Source: an uncultured Lachnoclostridium sp.
GTDB lineage: Bacteria > Bacillota > Clostridia > Lachnospirales > Lachnospiraceae
Reading direction: 5' to 3'
NCBI GenBank assembly: GCA_944376715.1
Contig: CALWDO010000021.1
Coordinates: 1 to 42,791 of the forward strand
Length of the DNA: 42,791 nucleotides
The position numbers were made by a program, and so were the translations under genes. Every line of letters starts with the position of its first letter. Position 1 is the stretch's first letter. The notes under the pieces are model-generated. The model saw nothing but the letters and a program-made list of their open reading frames with translations, was not told where the DNA came from and ran no database searches. This document shows positions 5,625 to 16,407 of the stretch, one piece after another.

Positions 5625-7094
5625 TTATTTTCTTTTTAAAGCGGCGCGTTTTCTGCCATACCATACAATCGCGCACACATAAGCTGCCGCTGCCACAAGT
5701 CCGATAATATATGCGCCGGTCCACGGGATATTAAATCCGATCTGCGCGTTGGCGATATAGGTAATCGTTACAAACGCGTACCATGCGCCCGGAAGCAATG
5801 GCATCCAGACAAATTTTTCTTTTCCGTTCTCGAACATCCAGACAGAGATAGCCAGGAACGCGAACAAAGCCAGCGTCTGGTTGGACCATGCGAAGTATCT
5901 CCACAGGATGTTGAAACCGTTGGAATTGAGTTTTGCGAACACCAGGATCACCGCTACCAGAGCGAAGATCACTGCGGCCAGGGATAGTCTCTTTCCATTC
6001 GTGGACTGGTCCAGATGAAATGCATCAGAGATCGCCAGACGAAGGGAACGAAGCGCCGTATCACCGGAAGTGATCGGAAGCACAATCACGCCCAGCAGAG
6101 CGACGATACCGCCCACCGGTCCCAGGATGTTTTTACAAACTACGCCGATCGTGGCGGTTGCCAGAGACGCGTTGGCTTCCTGCAGGCCCAGGTTGTAAAC
6201 GCCCATAGCGCCTGCCGCCCATACCATAGCGATGAAACCTTCCAGTACCATCATATTATAGAATGTCATGCGGCCTTCCTTCTCGCTCTTCATGGTACGG
6301 GAGATGATCGCCGTCTGCGTGGAATGGAATCCGGAAAGGATACCGCATGCCACCGTGATGAAGAAGATCGGGACAAAATGATTCGCATTGAAATAATCTC
6401 CATATGCCACGATTCCGTTGTTCCACGGCTCCCACAGCTCTACCAGCGGATATCCGTGAACAAACAGTCCGATAAAAACACCCACTGCCGAAAACAGAAG
6501 GATCGCGCCAAAGATAGGATAAATACGTCCGATGATCTTATCGATCGGAAATACGGTTGCGATCAGATAGTATACAAAGATCACGCCGTAAATCACCCAT
6601 GTGGATACAGAAGTCACGGCTCCGTCAAATCCAAACACCTGCGTGGCAGCAATATCGCCCGGCGTGTAGATGAACACAGCTCCCACCAGAAGAAGCAGCA
6701 AACTGCAAAAGATCTGGTAAAACGTGTAGATGCCTTTATTACTGTATTTGCGGATCATATCCGGCATCTGGCTTCCGCCGTCCCTGAGGCAGATCATACC
6801 GGAAAAATAATCGTGCATAGCGCCCCCGATAATATTGCCGATGGGGATAGTGATAAACGCGATCGGCCCGAACAAGATGCCCTGAATCGGCCCGAGGATC
6901 GGACCCGTACCCGCGATATTCAGCAGGTTAATCAGGCTGTTTTTCCATTTCTTCATAGGAACATAGTCCACGCCGTCCTGTTTTGTGTAAGCCGGAGTTT
7001 CTCTGTCGTCCGGCCCGAAGACCCTCTCGCAGAACTTGCCATACAAAGCAGCTCCTCCGATCAGGATCACGAGACCAATGATAAATGTTATCAT
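5625..7094 (-). CDS. cstA: CstA family carbon starvation / pyruvate transporter
   Basis: A 489-residue polytopic membrane protein of the CstA family; characterised E. coli members (CstA, BtsT) import pyruvate, and CstA is also linked to peptide use. Family hallmarks are the N-terminal region RETPAYTKQDGVDYVP, the NIAGTGPILGPIQG motif in the first third and the long run of hydrophobic helices with GFHSTQTA in the middle. It is shorter than the roughly 700-residue proteobacterial proteins but of the length usual in Clostridia. The start is an ATG with GGAGAG upstream. It is expressed alone from its own 180-bp AT-rich upstream region, which holds a promoter and a catabolite-response-like site, and shares the terminator at 5572-5609. 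Confidence 0.92.
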   Translation of the reverse strand: MITFIIGLVILIGGAALYGKFCERVFGPDDRETPAYTKQDGVDYVPMKKWKNSLINLLNIAGTGPILGPIQGILFGPIAFITIPIGNIIGGAMHDYFSGMICLRDGGSQMPDMIRKYSNKGIYTFYQIFCSLLLLLVGAVFIYTPGDIAATQVFGFDGAVTSVSTWVIYGVIFVYYLIATVFPIDKIIGRIYPIFGAILLFSAVGVFIGLFVHGYPLVELWEPWNNGIVAYGDYFNANHFVPIFFITVACGILSGFHSTQTAIISRTMKSEKEGRMTFYNMMVLEGFIAMVWAAGAMGVYNLGLQEANASLATATIGVVCKNILGPVGGIVALLGVIVLPITSGDTALRSLRLAISDAFHLDQSTNGKRLSLAAVIFALVAVILVFAKLNSNGFNILWRYFAWSNQTLALFAFLAISVWMFENGKEKFVWMPLLPGAWYAFVTITYIANAQIGFNIPWTGAYIIGLVAAAAYVCAIVWYGRKRAALKRK

Positions 7095-7136
7095 ATATCT
7101 CTCTCCTCTCTGTTGTATAAATATGTTGCTAAAAAA

Positions 7137-7181
7137 AGAATATCATTTATTAAATTTTTGTAAACAATCTAAACGTTTTCT
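7137..7181 (-). promoter_or_regulatory. cstA promoter with cre-like site
   Basis: On the minus strand TTTACA (7159-7164) and TATTCT (7137-7142) are spaced by 16 nt, about 43 bp before the cstA start. Directly upstream, 7168-7181 reads AGAAAACGTTTAGA, matching the CcpA cre consensus (TGWAANCGNTNWCA) at 12 of 14 positions. A CcpA site next to a carbon-starvation transporter is plausible but not shown. Confidence 0.45.
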
Positions 7182-7275
7182 TTTCAAAAATTTTATGTTT
7201 TATATAATTTTTTTAGTATCAAGTGATAGCTTATGTACAATCTATACAATTTTTGAGGAAAAGTCATTTATTACT

Positions 7276-8901
7276 TTAATCTTTATACCGAACCACGTCC
7301 CACTCATTCAGCTCTGCTGTTTCCGATACAATGATCTCTGTATCTGCGTCCAGAGCGCCTTCCTCAATGGCTGCATAACTGTCATTCTGATCCAGCACCC
7401 GCACATATACCTTTTCCGCAGCCAGTTCTTCTCCCAGAATACCGGAACGTTTTCCCAGCACATAGATATAATCTCTCTGATTCTCATCCTCCCGCAGCGC
7501 TTCCAGAGGAATACAGCACGTATAAGTCTCGCTCTGAACTTCCGCATACATAGTGCCGCTCTCTCCGATACTTCCCGTATTTTCCGGAAGAAAGATCCGG
7601 ATATCATACATCTGGGGCGACGACTCGCTCTGTGCCACATAATCTACTTTCACATCAATCCTGGAAGCATTCCCCAGTTTCAGTTCTACCTCGTCCCCCT
7701 GATTCACATACTGTTTCTGTTCTTCTGTCAGGGAGCCCCCAAACTGCAGCGGGCTGGTCAGGTCCGCATATACGACGGCCGCTCCGTCCGGCGCCGGGTC
7801 GCCCGGACTGACACAGATATCTGTAACCACGCCTTCCGCCTCTGCGTATATTTTTCCTTCTGTTTCCAGAATCTTCTCATAACGTTCCAGTGATGTCTGT
7901 GCGCTTTCCAGCTCCAGGCGGGTTACTTCCAGACTGCTGTCCGCGGCGGGGGCTGCAGCCGCGTCTTCCACCTTTCGTCCCGCCTCCTGCAGAGTATTCT
8001 CTCTGGACTGCTCTGCGTCTTCCGCTGCCCGCTGTGCGCTCGCCGCAGATGATTCCAGGCTGCTCTGCTGCTCCCGCCAGGCTTCCAGGGCGCTGTCTTC
8101 CGCTGAGAAATCAGGCTTTTCCACAGGATTGTCCGACAGCGTCTTCCACGCCGCCTGTGCAGTGTGGAAAGCAGCCTGTGCCTCCGCCGCCTTCTGGCGC
8201 GCCGCTTCCAGCTCTGCCTCTGCCTGCTGGCCCTCCAGCTGCTTCACTTCTTCCTCTGCTGCGTTCCATGCAGCTTCCGCCTCCTCCATGGCCTGCTTCG
8301 CCTGAGCTTCTTTCGCCGCCCACTCCTCATATGCAGTCTGCTGCGCCTGACGGTCCTCCTGGGACGTCACCTGAGGGCGGCTGTTCCGGTGCTCTTCCAG
8401 CGCGTCTTCCGCCGCGTCCAGATCATCCTGCGCCCGCGCTACGTTCTGATCCGCCTGCTCCCTGGCAGCGGTATAATCCTGATCCGCTCTGGCGCTCTCC
8501 TGCTGACGCAGGGCTTCTTCCCTGCTCTGGTTCTGCTCCAGCGCCTGTATCTGAAGCTCCAGTTTCTTTACCGCCAGCCTCTGCTCCTGAACTGTCTCCT
8601 CCAGTTCCTCCGTATCCAAGTCAAAAAGGAGCGTCCCCTCTTCTACCCGCTCTCCTATCTGTACATAAACCGTGCGGACCCGCAGGCCGGGCAGCGTATG
8701 AACCGCATATTCCTGCCCTTCCCGGACGATCCCCGACGCCTCCACCTGATGAGCCAGGGACATACGCCGCGGCGTCTCTGTCTCTACCTGCGTCAGGCCG
8801 GAGGCATAGACCGCTCTGGAGACCAGCGTTCCTAAGAACATCAGGACAAAAAAGCCGCCAAATGCCGCCAGTATCTTCTTTTGTTTTTTCCAAAGCTCCA
8901 T
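7276..8901 (-). CDS. HlyD-like membrane fusion / adaptor protein with long coiled coil
   Basis: A 541-residue protein with an N-terminal membrane anchor (about residues 8-32) and a split lipoyl/biotinyl-like domain whose first half is at about 45-95. A long Ala/Gln/Glu-rich coiled coil follows (about 95-345). The second lipoyl half comes next (GKIYAEAEGVVTDICVSPGDPAPDG), then a beta-barrel region and a C-terminal domain. This is the layout of HlyD/MFP adaptors, which in Gram-positives usually partner MacB-type export permeases. Here it is the last gene of an operon with MalF/MalG-type import permeases; the upstream stop is 4 bp away and its AAGGAG is the ribosome binding site. Its role with these permeases is unknown. 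No terminator is visible before cstA. Confidence 0.85.
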   Translation of the reverse strand: MELWKKQKKILAAFGGFFVLMFLGTLVSRAVYASGLTQVETETPRRMSLAHQVEASGIVREGQEYAVHTLPGLRVRTVYVQIGERVEEGTLLFDLDTEELEETVQEQRLAVKKLELQIQALEQNQSREEALRQQESARADQDYTAAREQADQNVARAQDDLDAAEDALEEHRNSRPQVTSQEDRQAQQTAYEEWAAKEAQAKQAMEEAEAAWNAAEEEVKQLEGQQAEAELEAARQKAAEAQAAFHTAQAAWKTLSDNPVEKPDFSAEDSALEAWREQQSSLESSAASAQRAAEDAEQSRENTLQEAGRKVEDAAAAPAADSSLEVTRLELESAQTSLERYEKILETEGKIYAEAEGVVTDICVSPGDPAPDGAAVVYADLTSPLQFGGSLTEEQKQYVNQGDEVELKLGNASRIDVKVDYVAQSESSPQMYDIRIFLPENTGSIGESGTMYAEVQSETYTCCIPLEALREDENQRDYIYVLGKRSGILGEELAAEKVYVRVLDQNDSYAAIEEGALDADTEIIVSETAELNEWDVVRYKD

Positions 8902-8905
8902 CTTT

Positions 8906-9763
8906 TTACTCCTTCAATGCGGACGCGGCAATTCCCCGTTCCAGATAGTCTCTTCCCAGAAGAAATACAAACAGAGCCGGTATCAATGTGATGACGGACG
9001 CCACAAACGCATATCCCGCCTGGTCCAGACTGATCTCCGGCAAATACAAAGATAACGGCCATAGAGACTGGTCTTTCAGAAATGCCAGCGGCTGCTCTAT
9101 CAGATTCCAGCACTCCAGGAATCCCAATACTGCCGACGACAGGATCCCGCCTGAAGCCAGCGGTATTCCTACGCGCCGGAATATCTGCCACTCTCCCGCT
9201 CCGTCCACTCTCGCCGCTTCCAGAAGCTCTTTCGGTATCCCGCAGAAGCTCCGGTAAATCAAAAAGACCGGAAATGTAGAGAATACAGCCGGAAGGATCA
9301 CGGCGCCGTGCGTATTCATCAGATGAAGTCCGTTCAATACCAGATAGCTGGACAGCATTGTGACTTGAAAAGGCATCAGCATCAGTACCAGATATACCGT
9401 AAAAAGCAGCCTTCGGCAGGGAAACGGATATACGGCGAAGGCCCATGCCGCCGGTACTGCCGCCAGAAGTTGTCCCGCCAGGATGAGCGCTGTGATTTTC
9501 ACGGAATTCCAGAACACGACGTAAAACTGCGGTGTAAAAAGCAGTACATTTTCATAATGGGAAAAGGTGGGGTAATCCGGCATCCATTTCCAGTATACAA
9601 ATCCTTTCGCCGCGTCCGATAAAGGCGCCAGATACTGGTTCAGTTCGTACCGGCTGGTCACAGATCCGGTAAGCAGAAAAAGAACCGGTGTGCAGAAAAA
9701 AATCCCTAATGCCGTCAAAAACACAAACAGCGCCGCGCGCCTTATTCTTTTCCAGACTGCCAT
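8906..9763 (-). CDS. Carbohydrate-type ABC permease (MalG family)
   Basis: A 285-residue inner-membrane permease with six predicted helices and the cytoplasmic EAA loop (EAARVDGAGEWQIFRRVGIP, about residues 183-202) that docks to an ABC ATPase. It has the typical MalG-type length and the opening segment with a large extracytoplasmic loop before helix 2. The ATG start has AAGGAGG upstream. It is the third gene of the operon after the binding protein and the MalF-type permease and overlaps neither neighbour (gaps 4 and 9 bp). No ATPase is encoded here, so it must share a housekeeping ATPase of the MsmK type if it transports in the usual way. Confidence 0.9.
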   Translation of the reverse strand: MAVWKRIRRAALFVFLTALGIFFCTPVLFLLTGSVTSRYELNQYLAPLSDAAKGFVYWKWMPDYPTFSHYENVLLFTPQFYVVFWNSVKITALILAGQLLAAVPAAWAFAVYPFPCRRLLFTVYLVLMLMPFQVTMLSSYLVLNGLHLMNTHGAVILPAVFSTFPVFLIYRSFCGIPKELLEAARVDGAGEWQIFRRVGIPLASGGILSSAVLGFLECWNLIEQPLAFLKDQSLWPLSLYLPEISLDQAGYAFVASVITLIPALFVFLLGRDYLERGIAASALKE

Positions 9764-9772
9764 AGTTCCTCC

Positions 9773-10624
9773 TTATTGTCCGGGATCCGGATCCCAGAAT
9801 TTTCCCAGCAGTAAGATTACTGCCAGCAGCACGCCCCCGATGCAGACGGCTGCCGCCGCCATCTTGTCCAGATCCAGATTTACAAACCAGTTATTAAACA
9901 GATGCTGAAGCAGGTACATACTCTCATGGGGATAAGATCCCGCCACCAGATATGCCTCCCGGAAAACCTTAAAAGAATTTAAAAAGGAAAGCACTGTGAT
10001 CGTATAGAGCATACCCTTCAGGTTCGGAAAGAGGATTTTCCAGAAACACTGCCGTTCGCTGGCGCCGTCCAGCCGCGCCGCTTCCAACATTTCCTGGGGA
10101 ACCGCCAGAATTCCGGCCAGCCAGAGCACTACCGTATACCCGAGATTTTTCCACAGATAACTGAATACCAGTACCCAGAAAGCCGCTCCTGTACCCATAT
10201 AATCGATCCCGCCTCCCTCCGGCAGCAGATGAAACATAGAAAGCGCGCCGTTCAGGAATCCTCCTTCCGAAAAGATCATTTTCCATACCAGCACTACGGT
10301 AGCCGCAGGAACCGCCATAGGAAAGAGGAACAGAGACTTCAGCCACTGTCCCTGACAAAATTTGCTGATCTGTACCGCCAGAAAAAGGCCGGTTCCGATC
10401 AGCAGCGGCAGACAGACCAGCGTGAACCGGACCGTATTTTTTACCGCCAGCTGAAACGCCTGATTTTGAAATACTGTCAGATAATTTTCCACTCCGTTCC
10501 ATTCCCCGGTTACGGCGGTCAGAAACGACCGCCGTACCACATCCAGGAATGGCAGCAGGCAGAATACCGTGACGCCCAGAAGGCTCGGAATGAGAAACAA
10601 GATCCAGGCATGTTTCCTGTTCAC
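9773..10624 (-). CDS. Carbohydrate-type ABC permease (MalF family)
   Basis: A 283-residue permease with an N-terminal helix (AWILFLIPSLLGVTVFCLLPF) and the EAA loop EAARLDGASERQCFWKILFP at about residues 189-208, partner of the MalG-type gene that follows. The start is GTG at 10624, supported by AGGAGG at 10634-10639 with 9-nt spacing; this ribosome binding site overlaps the stop codon of the upstream binding protein, so translation is probably coupled. The two permeases would form the heterodimeric channel of a CUT1-type importer. Confidence 0.9.
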   Translation of the reverse strand: MNRKHAWILFLIPSLLGVTVFCLLPFLDVVRRSFLTAVTGEWNGVENYLTVFQNQAFQLAVKNTVRFTLVCLPLLIGTGLFLAVQISKFCQGQWLKSLFLFPMAVPAATVVLVWKMIFSEGGFLNGALSMFHLLPEGGGIDYMGTGAAFWVLVFSYLWKNLGYTVVLWLAGILAVPQEMLEAARLDGASERQCFWKILFPNLKGMLYTITVLSFLNSFKVFREAYLVAGSYPHESMYLLQHLFNNWFVNLDLDKMAAAAVCIGGVLLAVILLLGKFWDPDPGQ

Positions 10625-10637
10625 CTTTAACTGCCTC

Positions 10638-12929
10638 CTATTCTGCCAGATAGATGGCCGCCTTGCGGCAGATCTCGCTCACTGCGTCTTCCACGCTCAT
10701 CTCTCCGTTCAAAGCGTCCGGCCCCGCCTCATAGACTGCCTGCTCCAGCGCGGAATCTCCTGTACAGGGCGTATCCGCAGCCGCAGCAATCTCTTTCAAC
10801 CTCTGAAAATCTTCCTCCGAAGCCCATACAAGATCCAGACTGAACAACTCTCCGGAATCTCCGGACACCGCGATACCCGACATTTCCTGACCCGCAGGCG
10901 CCGCAGCCATCCGGTCAAAGGATGCCGCGTTCACCGGGAATCCTCCCGGCAGCTCCAGATCCTGCAGCTGGGCAGAAAACAGGAAACAGAAAAATTCCTG
11001 TGCCAGTTCCCTGTCCGCCGCTCCTTCTGTGATACTTACCTGTGCCACAGGCAAAAATCCATTCTGTATCTGACCATTCCAGGCTCCATATGCCAGGTTG
11101 TCCTCCTGTCCTGCTACGGTGCTGATCAGGTTAAAGTCCGAAGACATGCCGCTCACGCTCCCGACTGCCAGCGCCTGCTGTCCCATCGCCACATCCAGCG
11201 CACCCGCGGAGGCATTCGCGTAATAATGTCCCTCTCCAGAGACGTCCGTACTCCAAGCTTCCCGATAATTCTGCACATACTCCTCCAGTTCTTCTGCAGA
11301 AAATCCTGCAGTTTCTGTCTGATAAATTCGCCTGGCCTGGGTGAGAAATTCTGTCAGGGCTTCCTCGTCCACCGCTCCGTTTTCATCTGTCCAGGCCGGC
11401 GAAGAGACAAGGCCCAGGGTATACAGTACCTCTTCCTCCGTCATGAATCCCAGGATCGATCCCTCGGGATGTTCCTGCCTCAGGTTTTCCTGCACGTCGG
11501 CCAAAGTTTCCAGATTTGTCACCTGATTTACCGCATCTGTGTCTCCCAGCATCATGGGCAGCCGGAAACGCAGCGGGAGACTGTAAATTTCCCCGTCCTC
11601 CCGGAACGCGTCCACGATATTGGACAACAGGGCTGATTCTCCGGTCATGCCGTCCACCAGTCCGCTCACGTCTGCCAGAACTCCCTTCTGGCGGTACGAC
11701 GACTCGGGAAGACCGTCCAGCACCAGCAGATCCGGACCGTTTCCGGACAGAATCTCTGTATTTAAGTTCCGGATGGCGTCCTCTTCCGTCACCCCGTCCG
11801 AGCCGGACATTCCCACTTCATATCTCACATAGACTTCCGGATGCTCCCGCTGGAACAGGCTGACCGCCTGCCGCACGGTATAATCCTCTGTCAGACTGTA
11901 GATGCGTATCTCTTCTTCCGGCACCGTGGGAATCGTCTCGTCGTATACATAACGGCAGAGCTTTGTCCCCGGATACAGGACCGCAAATTCATCGTCCGCC
12001 AGCGCCGCCAGACCGCCTTTTCCCATCTGGGGATCTCCCAGAGAAGTAAGGTTTCCATCAATCACCTGTTCCATGGCGGCGCCTCCGATCACGTGACGGT
12101 AAAGCCCCTTATTAAAAGCCACATAGATCACATCAGCCTGCTCTCCCTGTACCGCCAGCACGGCATAATTGTCCGTCTCTGTTCCCAATCCCATAGAAAC
12201 AGTTCCATCGTCCATGATAAAATCGTTCAGTATCTTGTCTTCTTCCTGAGTACCGTTTTCCAGATCGTACAGGCTGACCCCTTCCGATGAAAACGCGATC
12301 AGATACCTGTCCGTAAAGCCCAGCGAATCCACCAGTCCACCGGTATCCATCAACTCTTCCGGCGAACCGTCAGTCTCGTCGATCCGGTAAACCTTCCCGT
12401 CCAGTCCGCACCCGTACAGACGGCTGTCAGTCCCGAACCACAGGCTGTATATCTCATATTCCATCCGTGGAATCTCCAGGTCTGACGCGTTTCCTTCCGC
12501 GTCCGCATACAGATAAGCAAAACTAAGATCCCCTTCTGTATTCTCTGCCGCCGCATCATCTATATAGACAGCCGCCGCGGCTCCGGACGGCGCCAGCGCC
12601 AGATCGGCAATATACGTCTGATTCTGCTGAAGCTCCTGCAGCCATGACGCGTCCCTTTTCTCCCAGGTACCGCCTCCGTCCGAAGAGACGGACAGCCCGC
12701 TGTTCTGACCCAAAATCGCCAGGCCGCCGCCGTCCAGCGCCTGCATGGCAGTCTGATAATCCTGATCCCCGCCTTCGGGCAGGCTCATATCTTCCTCCAG
12801 GTACCGCCCCATGCTTTTCTGACCATCCGTACCTCCGCTTTCTCCATTCTGGTCTGTATCTCCGCCCTGTGAGCCGCAGCCTCCCAGCAGCGCCGCCGCC
12901 AGCAGCAGCCATATCCACGTTCTTTTCAT
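10638..12929 (-). CDS. Lipoprotein: beta-propeller-like region fused to family 1 solute-binding domain
   Basis: A 763-residue lipoprotein with lipobox LLGGC (Cys18). Residues about 45-340 form repeated short strand units and include an Asp-box (SSDGGGTW at about 84-91, the S-x-D-x-G-x-T-W pattern), as in sialidase/sortilin-type propellers. From about 345 the protein resembles an extracellular solute-binding protein family 1: TVRQAVSLFQREHPEVYVRYE, then NTEILSGNGPDLLVLDG and a C-terminal part with a conserved FFCFLFS. Usual binding proteins are 400-450 residues, so the N-terminal half is an extra domain. It is the first gene of the permease/adaptor operon and is divergent from the two-component system. 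The ligand is unknown; the propeller may present or sense a polymer or protein. Confidence 0.8.
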   Translation of the reverse strand: MKRTWIWLLLAAALLGGCGSQGGDTDQNGESGGTDGQKSMGRYLEEDMSLPEGGDQDYQTAMQALDGGGLAILGQNSGLSVSSDGGGTWEKRDASWLQELQQNQTYIADLALAPSGAAAAVYIDDAAAENTEGDLSFAYLYADAEGNASDLEIPRMEYEIYSLWFGTDSRLYGCGLDGKVYRIDETDGSPEELMDTGGLVDSLGFTDRYLIAFSSEGVSLYDLENGTQEEDKILNDFIMDDGTVSMGLGTETDNYAVLAVQGEQADVIYVAFNKGLYRHVIGGAAMEQVIDGNLTSLGDPQMGKGGLAALADDEFAVLYPGTKLCRYVYDETIPTVPEEEIRIYSLTEDYTVRQAVSLFQREHPEVYVRYEVGMSGSDGVTEEDAIRNLNTEILSGNGPDLLVLDGLPESSYRQKGVLADVSGLVDGMTGESALLSNIVDAFREDGEIYSLPLRFRLPMMLGDTDAVNQVTNLETLADVQENLRQEHPEGSILGFMTEEEVLYTLGLVSSPAWTDENGAVDEEALTEFLTQARRIYQTETAGFSAEELEEYVQNYREAWSTDVSGEGHYYANASAGALDVAMGQQALAVGSVSGMSSDFNLISTVAGQEDNLAYGAWNGQIQNGFLPVAQVSITEGAADRELAQEFFCFLFSAQLQDLELPGGFPVNAASFDRMAAAPAGQEMSGIAVSGDSGELFSLDLVWASEEDFQRLKEIAAAADTPCTGDSALEQAVYEAGPDALNGEMSVEDAVSEICRKAAIYLAE

Positions 12930-12988
12930 GTTTTCCTCCTGTCCATATATGATTTCTTCCTGATTCTGATATGATCTTACCAGTGCTT

Positions 12989-13006
12989 TCTCTAAATAAT
13001 CTCTAA
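12989..13006. promoter_or_regulatory. Direct repeat, likely response-regulator binding site
   Basis: TCTCTAA occurs at 12989-12995 and again at 13000-13006, an 11-bp period typical of OmpR-family response regulators binding head to tail. The repeats lie 4 bp upstream of the -35 box of the regulator gene. On the other strand they occupy the -35 position of a weak -10-like CATATC (12968-12973) for the lipoprotein operon, so one site could control both directions. Confidence 0.6.
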
Positions 13007-13010
13007 GAAA

Positions 13011-13040
13011 TTGACACCCGGAATTTTACCATGCTATAAT
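13011..13040 (+). promoter_or_regulatory. Promoter of the two-component system
   Basis: TTGACA (13011-13016) and TATAAT (13035-13040) with 18-nt spacing, plus an extended -10 TGC, 51 bp before the response regulator start. Confidence 0.85.
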
Positions 13041-13090
13041 GCGGGCAGCAAGGCGGTCTTTGGACCGTACAAAGATTTGAAGGTGACATT

Positions 13091-13765
13091 ATGAGACTTC
13101 TGTTGGTGGAAGATGACGAAAAACTGAATCAATCCCTGGCCTTTCAGTTGGAAAAGGAGGGGTTTCAGGTAGACTCCTGCATGGACGGAGAAGAAGCGCT
13201 GTACTACGCAGAGCAGGACATCCATGATCTGATCCTCTTGGACCGCATGCTTCCGCGCATCAGCGGCATGGAGGTACTCCGCCGGATACGGCGCTCCCGC
13301 CGTCAGGTCCCTGTCATCCTGATCACTGCCCTGGGCGAATTGGACGACAAAGTTACCGGGCTGGATTCCGGCGCGGACGACTATCTGGTCAAACCTTTTG
13401 CCTTTGAAGAACTGATGGCCCGGATCCGCTGCATTACCCGGCGTCCCCGGAAAATGGCCTTTGGCGAGGCAGTCTCCTGCGGAGATCTGTCTTATGATGT
13501 TTCCGAGAACCGGCTGAACGGCCCGCAGGGAAACTGCAGTCTGTCCAAACGGGAAGGCATGCTGCTGGAGACGTTCCTGCGAAATCCATCCCAGACCCTT
13601 TCCCGCCCCCAGCTGCTCACAAAGGTGTGGGGACCGGACAGCGACGTGGAAGACGGCAATCTGGACAATTACATTCATTTTCTGCGCCGCAGGCTGCAGG
13701 CCGTGGGCAGTTCCCTGAAAATCCAGACGGTACGGGGCGTAGGATACCGCCTCCAGCAGCCGTAA
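13091..13765 (+). CDS. OmpR-family response regulator
   Basis: A 224-residue two-domain regulator. The receiver domain has the acidic pair D8/D9, phosphoacceptor D51 (LILLDRMLP), T79 and K101 (LVKPF). The C-terminal winged helix (about 130-222) carries SKREGMLLETFL, the recognition region and the wing VRGVGYRL. The ATG is preceded by GAAGGTGA. It is co-transcribed with the kinase 31 bp downstream and probably binds the TCTCTAA repeats in front of its own promoter and the divergent transport operon. Confidence 0.95.
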   Translation: MRLLLVEDDEKLNQSLAFQLEKEGFQVDSCMDGEEALYYAEQDIHDLILLDRMLPRISGMEVLRRIRRSRRQVPVILITALGELDDKVTGLDSGADDYLVKPFAFEELMARIRCITRRPRKMAFGEAVSCGDLSYDVSENRLNGPQGNCSLSKREGMLLETFLRNPSQTLSRPQLLTKVWGPDSDVEDGNLDNYIHFLRRRLQAVGSSLKIQTVRGVGYRLQQP

Positions 13766-13796
13766 ACCACATACTTACTTTCAAAGGGAGGTTTCC

Positions 13797-15074
13797 ATGT
13801 TCCGGAAAGTCCATATCCGCCTGTCCCTTCTTTGCGCCGGGATCACGGTTTTTATCCTTCTTGCCATGTCCTTCGGCTATCTGTATATTTCAGAGCAGGG
13901 GCTTCGCAGCAACCATTTTATCTCTTTTCAGAACGATATGAATACCGTGCTCTCCAATCTGGAACAGCAGACAGAGATTACCTACGAGTGGCTGACCCGG
14001 ATTGAGGACGGCGGAAAATACCAGATCCGTATCCTGGACAACGGCGTTCCCCTTCATTTCAGCCTGTCGGACTCCGAAGAGGAACGACTGCTTTTTGAAC
14101 GGGCATGGGAGATCTGTACAGAAGATTATCCGCTGGCAGAAGCAGCCGAATCCTATGGCGTCCGCCATGTGGAATTTTCCTTTTCGTCCAATCAGAACAG
14201 GCGGAATGATTACTATGCCTGTGCCGCCCTGTCCGACCGGCACGGCGCCGAACTCCAGATCCTGATCCTTTCTTCTCTGGCTCCTCTGGAACAGCAGATC
14301 CAGAACCAGCGTATCCTGTTCCTCCTGCTGGATGTATTAGCCGTCGCCGCATTGTCTCTTTTTTCCTGGTATTTTACAAAACGGCTTTTAATGCCATTGG
14401 AAGAAAGCCGCATACGGCAGGAACAGTTCGTCGCTTCTGCCTCCCACGAGCTGCGTACTCCTCTGGCTGCCATACTGTCCTGCGCGTCCGCGTCGGAGCA
14501 TGCTCTTGGAGAAGACCGACGTCAGTTTCTGAACGCGATCCAGTCTGAAGGAAAACGCATGTCCCGGCTGATCGACGACATGCTCCTGCTGGCGAAAGCA
14601 GATCAGCAGAACTGGAACATCCGGAAAAAGGAGACGGAAACAGATACCCTTCTCCTGGACGTCTATGAAGCCTATGAACCTCTGGCCCGGGAAAAATCCA
14701 TCCGGCTTTCCATCCAGCTTCCGGAGACGGCTCTTCCCCCCTGTCTCTGCGATCCGGAACGGATCCGGCAGATCCTGGGTATCCTGATCCACAATGCGGT
14801 CAGCTACACTCCTTCCGGCGGGCAGATCCGGCTTATCCTCTCCGGAGACGGACATCATACACGCTTTGCCGTAACAGACAGCGGCATCGGGATACCCGAT
14901 GCCGAGAAAAAACGGATTTTTGAACGGTTTTACCGTGCGGATCAGTCCCGCAGCGAGAAAGGTCACTTTGGACTGGGACTCTCCATTGCCGCCCAGATCC
15001 TGAAAGCCCACGGCGGCAGACTCACAGTGGAGGATACGCCGGGCGGAGGAAGTACTTTTACTCTGATTTTATAA
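13797..15074 (+). CDS. Sensor histidine kinase
   Basis: A 425-residue kinase. Transmembrane segment 1 is at about residues 9-31, followed by an extracytoplasmic sensor region of about 140 residues with no family I recognise, and transmembrane segment 2 at about 172-193. The HisKA dimerisation domain has H217 in ASHELRTP. The ATPase domain has an N box (HNAVSYTP), G1 box (DSGIGIPD), F box (FERFYRAD) and G2 box (GLGLSIA). AGGGAGG lies upstream of the start. It partners the response regulator just before it; the stimulus is unknown but may be the ligand of the divergent propeller lipoprotein. Its stop is only 7 bp from the stop of the convergent membrane gene, with no clear terminator between. 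Confidence 0.95.
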   Translation: MFRKVHIRLSLLCAGITVFILLAMSFGYLYISEQGLRSNHFISFQNDMNTVLSNLEQQTEITYEWLTRIEDGGKYQIRILDNGVPLHFSLSDSEEERLLFERAWEICTEDYPLAEAAESYGVRHVEFSFSSNQNRRNDYYACAALSDRHGAELQILILSSLAPLEQQIQNQRILFLLLDVLAVAALSLFSWYFTKRLLMPLEESRIRQEQFVASASHELRTPLAAILSCASASEHALGEDRRQFLNAIQSEGKRMSRLIDDMLLLAKADQQNWNIRKKETETDTLLLDVYEAYEPLAREKSIRLSIQLPETALPPCLCDPERIRQILGILIHNAVSYTPSGGQIRLILSGDGHHTRFAVTDSGIGIPDAEKKRIFERFYRADQSRSEKGHFGLGLSIAAQILKAHGGRLTVEDTPGGGSTFTLIL

Positions 15075-15081
15075 ATCGCTT

Positions 15082-16407
15082 TTACTGTATCAGCCCCATA
15101 TTTCTCGCCCAGATGTTGTAAGCCTGCACACAGTCCTCCACCGGTACCACGCAGAGCAGCACAAACAATACCGCGCCGGTCATGATACAGATCTTCGCCA
15201 CAGGAAAAACCTTCCACTGGCGCAGGATCAGAGCCGCATACACGACCGTCATCCAGATCATGAACGTCTGCGGCAAAATCCGGTTCACGGTCAGTCCATA
15301 CACGTCTATATACATTGCCAGCTTGCTCATGGCCGTGGCAATAAGCAGCAGCGTCAGTACCGACAATATCATATTCAGAATGCACAGCCCCTTGTTCTCT
15401 TTCATCCGGTGCTCCGAAAAAAGCGACGCGCACAGGAGAAAGAACAAATTGAAGAATGAGATCGCGCACAGTTCGAAAAATCCCCTTCTCGCATATTCCG
15501 CGTACGTAAAGCCTTCCGGCCGGATCCCTGCGAACGCCGAAAATAAATATTCCGCCTGAAGCCAGATAAAGATCACATAGACCAGACACAAAATCCCCAG
15601 CGCCGTATAAAATGCCGCATCCGGAAGCAGCCTCGCTTTCTCTCCGGCCGCCATTACCTTTTCGCGGTCAATCCGGTCCGTATAACGGCCCTTGATACTG
15701 CCGTAAACCAGTCCGAACAGATACGCTGATACAGGAAGGGAAAACAAGATCCGTATCAGAGTCACCAGAAAATGTTCTGACAGATAAATCCCCAAATTGC
15801 CGAGTATCGCTTCGAATCTGGCGTCCGCGCTGGACAAAAGCGGCAGAACAATCATCAGTACCGGAATAACCAGAAGCAGTCCGCAGCCGATGCCGGCCGC
15901 ATACCGCAGTCGGCTCCCGGTTCCGGCTGCCCCCGCTTTTTCCTCCGGAACCTCTCCTTTTATTTCTCCCGTACCGGTACCAGATCTCCCGCCTTCCAGC
16001 AGAACCCGCAGCTGACAGCCAAAATTGGAAAACGGCACGAAGACGCCTGCATTCCACAGATCAAAGAATATCCAGGAAGAAGTCTTTCCCTCTTCCAGAA
16101 GTCTGCCCGATGCCGTCAGTGTCCAATAGGCCGCCGCCGCAATCAGAGCTAACACCTGCAGTCCCGGCATGATGCTCCAGAATGCTCCCGGCACGCCGAT
16201 CCCCACAACCACGCACGCCCAAAACACGCTCTCCGTAGTCAGTTTTTTTCCCTTTTCCAGATTATACGCCAGCACCGCCGCCACATAGAAAACAGTAAAT
16301 ACGGCCAGATTTCTTCCAAAATATCCCGCGGAAAAGGTATAGATAAATCCATATCCGAGCAGCAGATAAATCAGCGCAAAGATACGGTCTTTGTTGTCCG
16401 TATTCAT
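15082..16407 (-). CDS. DUF4153/DUF4173-type polytopic membrane protein
   Basis: A 441-residue protein with roughly ten to twelve hydrophobic segments and a cytoplasmic-looking Gly/Glu-rich linker (about residues 140-165). The segment AEYLFSAFAGIRPEGFTYAE and the following YARRGFFELCA fit the DUF4153/DUF4173 group of Firmicute membrane proteins, of unknown function. Its ATG overlaps the stop of the upstream HTH gene (ATGA at 16404-16407), so it is the third gene of a DUF2975-HTH-membrane protein operon. I am sure of the membrane nature, less sure of the exact family. Confidence 0.75.
   Translation of the reverse strand: MNTDNKDRIFALIYLLLGYGFIYTFSAGYFGRNLAVFTVFYVAAVLAYNLEKGKKLTTESVFWACVVVGIGVPGAFWSIMPGLQVLALIAAAAYWTLTASGRLLEEGKTSSWIFFDLWNAGVFVPFSNFGCQLRVLLEGGRSGTGTGEIKGEVPEEKAGAAGTGSRLRYAAGIGCGLLLVIPVLMIVLPLLSSADARFEAILGNLGIYLSEHFLVTLIRILFSLPVSAYLFGLVYGSIKGRYTDRIDREKVMAAGEKARLLPDAAFYTALGILCLVYVIFIWLQAEYLFSAFAGIRPEGFTYAEYARRGFFELCAISFFNLFFLLCASLFSEHRMKENKGLCILNMILSVLTLLLIATAMSKLAMYIDVYGLTVNRILPQTFMIWMTVVYAALILRQWKVFPVAKICIMTGAVLFVLLCVVPVEDCVQAYNIWARNMGLIQ

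Follow-up and report, generated by a model that had tools for sequence, protein, structure and literature searches.

Gene content of the locus

The window, meaning the whole 42,791-nucleotide stretch analysed here from an uncultured Lachnoclostridium sp. (contig CALWDO010000021.1), carries at positions 7276–15074 an importer-type transporter together with efflux-pump parts and one sensor–regulator pair, a combination which, on sequence comparison, Clostridia, many of them gut bacteria, have in common. All six genes proposed in the initial annotation were recovered at the same coordinates from open reading frames and Pfam matches (gene starts are predictions, taken as the first start codon in each frame). 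On the reverse strand lie the genes for a lipoprotein of 763 amino acids with a propeller-like and a solute-binding half (10638–12929), a MalF-type permease of 283 amino acids (9773–10624), a MalG-type permease of 285 (8906–9763) and a MacA/HlyD-type membrane-fusion adaptor of 541 (7276–8901). They are separated by gaps of 13, 9 and 4 bp, so 7276–12929 is likely one four-gene operon, in line with the co-transcription proposed initially. Divergent from it, on the forward strand, are the genes of an OmpR/PhoB-family response regulator of 224 amino acids (13091–13765; Pfam Response_reg and Trans_reg_C) and a sensor histidine kinase of 425 (13797–15074; HisKA and HATPase_c). The binding protein (SBP_bac_1/8) and the two permeases (both BPD_transp_1), sharing one operon, are as expected of a CUT1 importer; no ATPase gene was found among the genes of the locus by open reading frames and Pfam. 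Overall, the locus proved genuine and conserved, with unusual features beyond those that the initial annotation could recognise, and it probably encodes a CUT1-type importer with a shared ATPase, a MacA-like adaptor (ancestrally with a MacB-like subunit) and its own two-component control.

The lipoprotein, with its lipobox cysteine at position 18, falls into two halves. The Pfam match is confined to the C-terminal half, and a profile of 29 relatives (A1), compared with solved structures, gave C. thermocellum CbpC as the best match of the second half (7x0o, E 4.5e-25) and WD40 propellers for parts of positions ~83–290 in the first (best 2ymu, E 7.6e-18). In the structure model, residues 39–334 form a mainly beta region of 24 strands with four short helices, followed by the binding-protein fold at 339–763 (predicted local distance difference test, pLDDT, 89.3; predicted template modelling score, pTM, 0.86). 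The underlying 60-sequence alignment (A4) held the window's protein and 59 others; 87 of the 115 binding proteins were left after thinning. Six or so four-stranded blades, closed by a conserved GRYxE strand, would fit this region. The propeller-like domain named in the initial annotation finds support in the strands and the WD40 match and none in a fold search weighed below, and the propeller nature of residues 39–334 is supported but not proven.

The adaptor passes the HlyD_3 cut-off barely (23.5 vs 22.2 bits), which places it among the MacA-like adaptors. Its central region varies in length among relatives and may form a coiled coil. The 4-bp gap and the recurrence of the same partners elsewhere indicate that it belongs with the importer operon, as had been assumed. 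That it serves an adjacent exporter was rejected: the next gene, 181 bp on, encodes a CstA-type carrier, and the only further adaptor relative detected in this genome at E ≤ 0.001 has its own pump. This second, HlyD-type adaptor, on contig C40 (L241 4462–9152), precedes an AcrB-family RND pump, and a regulator and a kinase adjoin.

On the other side of the locus, a gene for a DUF4153 membrane protein (15082–16407) is convergent with the kinase gene, and the same is seen in the closest relative, L069. In that relative, a PepSY-domain lipoprotein gene (8291–8818) stands between the regulator and the binding protein on the regulator's strand, unlike in the window, where the regulator is directly beside the binding-protein gene. 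The nearest named relative is Lachnoclostridium sp. An196 (lipoprotein identity 90%). A phage origin was dropped, as the lipoprotein and the adaptor had no match in PHROGs.

Recurrence of the gene set and its MacB-like subunit

Lipoprotein matches at E ≤ 0.001 were present in 44 of the 150 sampled genomes of the family, the weaker of which may be ordinary binding domains. The binding protein was accompanied by both permeases and the adaptor in 29 of the 34 loci fetched from the sampled family genomes; among the other five, L041 stops at a contig edge, and L058, L059, L063 and L064 hold the binding protein alone. The same four genes were complete in 61 of 77 named loci. L122, whose MalG is broken in two, stays outside this count, and eight others (L070, L087, L088, L089, L108, L113, L133 and L135) are cut by the end of the contig or locus. 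Both sets of loci were selected via the binding protein. The converse search used a profile of the system's adaptor (E ≤ 1e-30, at most 9 candidates scored per genome) and returned 34 places in 28 of the 150 family genomes, a result valid for this adaptor clade only. At 33 of the 34 places the propeller-binding protein was in the same stretch: 32 have a listed binding-protein match within 7.2 kb, G002 has one in L251, and the thirty-fourth place (G147:C108) stops at a contig edge.

For 92 adaptor genes the sequence extended at least 1.5 kb to either side; MalF was near 91 of them, MalG near 88 and the binding protein near 91 (17 of 109 adaptor genes were excluded for short flanks; duplicate records of one place, e.g., L031/L095 and L035/L140, were kept here and in the EAA and box counts below). 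Within 9 kb of these 92 genes, the binding protein was found as one copy in 72 cases, two in 17, three in 2 and none in 1. In L127 (6332–16394), four tandem propeller-binding proteins are followed by one permease pair and one adaptor. At the level of the class, the binding-protein profile matched 14 of 291 genomes (E ≤ 1e-20). Ten of the 14 belong to other families, and in such families the same parts occur in permuted orders: binding protein twice, adaptor, MacB-like protein, MalF and MalG in L227 and L228; MalF, MalG, adaptor, MacB-like protein and binding protein in L230 and L231. The adaptor was not seen in the stretches L229, L234, L238 and L239.

Judged by these comparisons, chance falls far short of explaining how often the genes occur together. 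The initial annotation had allowed that its system idea might founder on a neighbourhood not conserved in other genomes; the search for the same gene set found it conserved. Incomplete CUT1 importers served by MsmX or MsmK are known (PMC7658222, cited, like the other papers below, from part of its text), and the locus might be one of them, with an unrelated adaptor alongside by an accident of gene order. Such an explanation is highly improbable, since the same partner stands at 33 of the 34 adaptor places and the order is rearranged in other families, and an accidental neighbourhood was rejected on these grounds.

The set as first pictured was conserved but incomplete, having missed the tandem binding-protein copies and a MacB-like partner in other lineages. 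According to BLAST clustering, 32 of 111 loci have, beside the adaptor gene, a gene for a membrane protein of ~300–440 amino acids; with a profile, a MacB-like gene lies at most 400 bp from the adaptor in 43 of the 92 cases. As far as such profiles tell, most other lineages of the system carry this MacB-like subunit without an ATPase domain. Pfam MacB_PCD was matched at E ≤ 0.01 by 21 of the 26 rows of alignment A2, which contains 26 of the 32 members; the Pfam cut-off was passed in L144, L035, L244, L249, L237 and L230 and not in L057, L095 and L228. No match to the ATPase or FtsX families occurred in the members scanned. In the model of the L144 protein, from Robinsoniella peoriensis (eight sequences, A5; pLDDT 76, pTM 0.66), a single helix at the N-terminus is followed by a mixed domain and then by four helices at the C-terminus. 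The 20 best PDB matches of this model, headed by 5gko (E 4.4e-11), are MacB, YknZ, LolCDE, YbbAP or related periplasmic domains.

The genome of the window (88% complete) holds no MacB-like copy at E ≤ 0.1, so that a displaced subunit elsewhere in it was discarded; the same profile matches 30 of the 150 family genomes. In a quick MalG tree (88 system rows and 3 outgroup rows, identical MalG rows removed), presence of the MacB-like gene changes twice, vs a mean of 29 after shuffling. One of these changes is L037, where the gene is one place further on, and the rest is therefore accounted for by one loss, on the branch leading to 46 rows, the window included. This branch has a support of 81 and the outgroup rows are long; loss, as the direction of change, is what the tree suggests. 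A small lipoprotein (~200 amino acids) precedes the binding-protein gene in 28 of the 111 loci, none of which has a MacB-like gene in the same clustering. This exclusion could result from common descent.

Both the adaptor and the MacB-like fold are export-type parts, and S. pneumoniae Spr0693 forms a hexameric tube that was modelled onto a MacB-like exporter (PMC5768738). The adaptor, ancestrally with the MacB-like subunit, might accordingly be a disguised efflux or secretion unit to which the importer genes are just co-regulated neighbours. We consider this improbable, because the MacB-like members scanned showed no ATPase domain, the adaptor remains with MalF and MalG both in the 46 rows where the subunit is gone and where the order is permuted, and the one other adaptor relative of the genome precedes an RND pump of its own. 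Nor does the window hold a MacB-type permease with an ATPase, the mark of a MacAB-type machine.

Power source and regulation

The EAA loops of both permeases are exact (EAARLDGASERQCFWKILFP in MalF and EAARVDGAGEWQIFRRVGIP in MalG), i.e., the coupling loops expected of a CUT1 importer are intact, and dead permeases found no support. Among the relatives, the motif is exact in 80 of 108 MalF rows and 89 of 111 MalG rows. The initial annotation was right in that the locus contains no ATPase. What it missed is that the lack of a linked one is ordinary, since there are CUT1 importers in Firmicutes that use a distant MsmX or MsmK in trans (PMC7658222; importers with a distant ATPase are also covered in PMC9601137), and that there are candidate shared ATPases. 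Its suggestion to look for an MsmK-type ATPase elsewhere was borne out by an MsmX-like protein of 346 amino acids in the same genome, with MsmX (6yir, E 3.8e-95) and the C. thermocellum ATPase 7x0q as the best solved relatives. An MsmX-like match at E ≤ 1e-60 exists in 27 of the 28 genomes with the system, and in 26 of the 28, the window's own included, identity is at least 56% over the aligned part; the match in G022 reaches 46%, and G001 (74% complete) has none. In L253 (7708–8811) and L254 (1163–2278), MalK-type ATPases with OB_MalK and TOBE directly follow MalG, the order in this lineage being adaptor, MacB-like protein, MalF and MalG.

Between the operon and the divergent pair lies a perfect direct repeat with an 11-bp period, TTAGAGA-TTAT-TTAGAGA (12989–13006, reverse strand), which is a putative regulator box. 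The lipoprotein start follows 59 bp after it, and on its other side, at a distance of 4 bp, is the −35 hexamer of the adjoining consensus promoter for regulator and kinase (TTGACA-18-TATAAT, 13011–13040, forward strand). Sites of OmpR/PhoB regulators are usually direct repeats of about one helical turn, and the regulator would bind here. The conserved box ties the regulator region to the operon, in keeping with the promoter region that the initial annotation had them share.

Within 300 bp upstream and with up to 2 mismatches, the box, in the general form TTAGAGA-N4-TTAGAGA, occurs in the window's orientation at 40 of 86 regulator genes vs 0.38 expected from dinucleotide shuffles, and in the opposite orientation, mostly imperfect (perfect in 6 of 86), at 67 of 86 vs 0.08; because these very sequences supplied the fixed motif, the expectations apply to a motif picked in hindsight. 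Of 4533 control windows of 300 bp from the named loci, true sites included, 57 and 84 carried the motif with up to 2 mismatches. A perfect box is present in 59 of the 77 named loci (71 copies in 1.39 Mb). On the binding-protein strand, 57 of 67 perfect boxes adjoin a binding-protein gene or a clustered small-lipoprotein gene and ten do not; one of the ten is in L140, where the permease–adaptor operon is split from the binding protein and each carries a box. Other perfect boxes away from full-length binding-protein and clustered small-lipoprotein genes are in L097 (7319), L105 (7418), L106 (7303) and L132 (7403), and likewise in L102 (2950), L138 (3165) and L077 (8804).

The window's own 2.9-Mb genome has two perfect boxes only, the one at 12989–13006 and one on contig C28. 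The latter is 47 bp before a gene for a 75-amino-acid lipoprotein (L266 8946–9173), a shortened counterpart of the small lipoprotein seen in other loci (phmmer E 5.9e-16 to L081) that lacks the C-terminal part. Imperfect boxes in this genome were not used, as up to 2 mismatches gave 11 matches vs 43 for the reversed control pattern; in the window, up to 3 mismatches gave 4 matches vs 4.0 expected. A scan for repeats of any sequence, which at 11 bp gave 37 of 40 vs 10.5 expected, was also dropped because other periods gave 10–24 of 40.

The divergent pair, with the conserved repeat box between it and the operon, is where the main rival to a working importer arises. The propeller-binding protein, with the permeases and the adaptor, may chiefly be the extracellular receptor of the kinase, transport being secondary. 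In L128, L136 and L229, the kinase and the regulator are kept with one to three propeller-binding proteins, with no permeases in the stretch, and transport-coupled or propeller-based sensing has parallels: BceAB systems coevolved with two-component systems (PMC5985334), and LpqB, a propeller-domain protein, acts with MtrAB (PMC13068155). Such a chiefly sensory role is nonetheless unlikely. Intact EAA loops and the in-locus MalK ATPases of two relatives point to a working importer, and for 19 of 91 adaptor genes the regulator and the kinase are missing from the surrounding 12 kb, which means that the transport parts persist without the pair. The permeases as a sensor only, an option of the initial annotation, are not needed, given the intact loops and an ATPase in trans being ordinary, and they could still act in that way.

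Proposed mechanism and known systems

In the importer that we favour, the propeller-like half of the lipoprotein would be an added surface-binding module that catches the ligand, probably sugar-like or a glycan fragment, at the surface. The C-terminal half would act as an ordinary solute receptor and pass the ligand to MalF–MalG, which would import it, powered by a borrowed MalK/MsmX-type ATPase. MacA-type proteins are hexameric funnels or tubes (PMC5985334, PMC5768738). Here, the MacA-like adaptor may form a ring or funnel above the permease mouth, ancestrally docked via the ATPase-less MacB-like subunit and left without it by a loss on the window's branch. What the kinase/regulator pair responds to is presumably the envelope or the receptor with its ligand bound, and the regulator would control the operon through the TTAGAGA box. 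Confidence is strong in the parts and their linkage and moderate in the mechanism.

Several observations weigh against this reading or parts of it. The best 50 matches of a whole-lipoprotein Foldseek search against the PDB are all binding-protein folds, with no propeller. The adaptor is a divergent member of its kind: its RND_mfp match (E 1.2e-22) stays under the cut-off (80.3 of 94.9 bits), and by sequence no solved chain was matched at E ≤ 0.01. With TM-scores by query no higher than 0.44, the L144 model coincides with MacB chiefly over the periplasmic domain, the membrane part being less certain, and the window has no MacB-like subunit, so the ancestral docking cannot hold there. Seven named loci (L075, L099, L128, L129, L130, L136 and L142) have binding proteins without permeases or adaptor, and two of the seven hold the kinase pair, which is also consistent with a sensing role; the pair is absent near the 19 adaptor genes mentioned above. 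In the window, just one of the two orientations of the box is present. As to power, the MsmX-like ATPase, a candidate supplier, adjoins another CUT1 permease pair, and its C-terminus is divergent, without an OB_MalK match (PF17912 had none in the own genome); such ATPases are common, and their presence in genomes with the system is weak evidence.

Going further, the system may tentatively be proposed as a new class of ATP-binding cassette (ABC) importer, a possibility that we hold with more doubt than the importer itself. It would unite a type I permease pair, a MacA-like ring, ancestrally an ATPase-less MacB-like subunit and a dedicated two-component switch; the power of a shared ATPase would do work outside the membrane, a large surface-bound ligand being passed from propeller receptors to the ring and on to the permease. 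The conserved operon combines type I importers with MacAB-type machines, which are otherwise assigned to different ABC classes. The clade without the MacB-like part, as a comparison, and the two-site candidate regulon make a role of the adaptor ring in uptake testable. If it proves true, part of what passes for efflux-adaptor genes in this family would belong to importers.

No published description of the gene set was found by title and abstract in the open-access literature searched (most subscription journals lie outside this scope), which agrees with the initial view of a conserved, undescribed set; four known systems come near it. BceAB-BceRS likewise has a transporter and a two-component system in one neighbourhood, and the ancestral set here includes a MacB-like domain; unlike in BceAB, as defined in the consulted part of PMC5985334, a ten-helix BceB-type permease and a BceA ATPase are not among the genes at 5625–16407. 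With LpqB-MtrAB the locus shares a propeller-domain lipoprotein linked to a two-component system, whereas LpqB acts with MtrAB and an ABC importer is not mentioned in that part of PMC13068155. CUT1 importers with an ATPase in trans (the MsmX clients of B. subtilis, the MsmK clients of S. pneumoniae and transporter B of C. thermocellum, the organism of CbpC, the best solved match of the lipoprotein profile) have the same binding protein and MalF/MalG-type permeases without a linked ATPase; an adaptor, a MacB-like subunit and a propeller go unmentioned for them in the portions of PMC7658222 and PMC9601137 used here. Finally, the Gram-positive MacAB-type systems YknWXYZ and Spr0693-0695 also have a MacA-like adaptor, to which most other lineages here add a MacB_PCD membrane protein. 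The difference is that no MacB-type ATPase was found in the present system and that its adaptor goes together with a binding protein and the permease pair of an importer.

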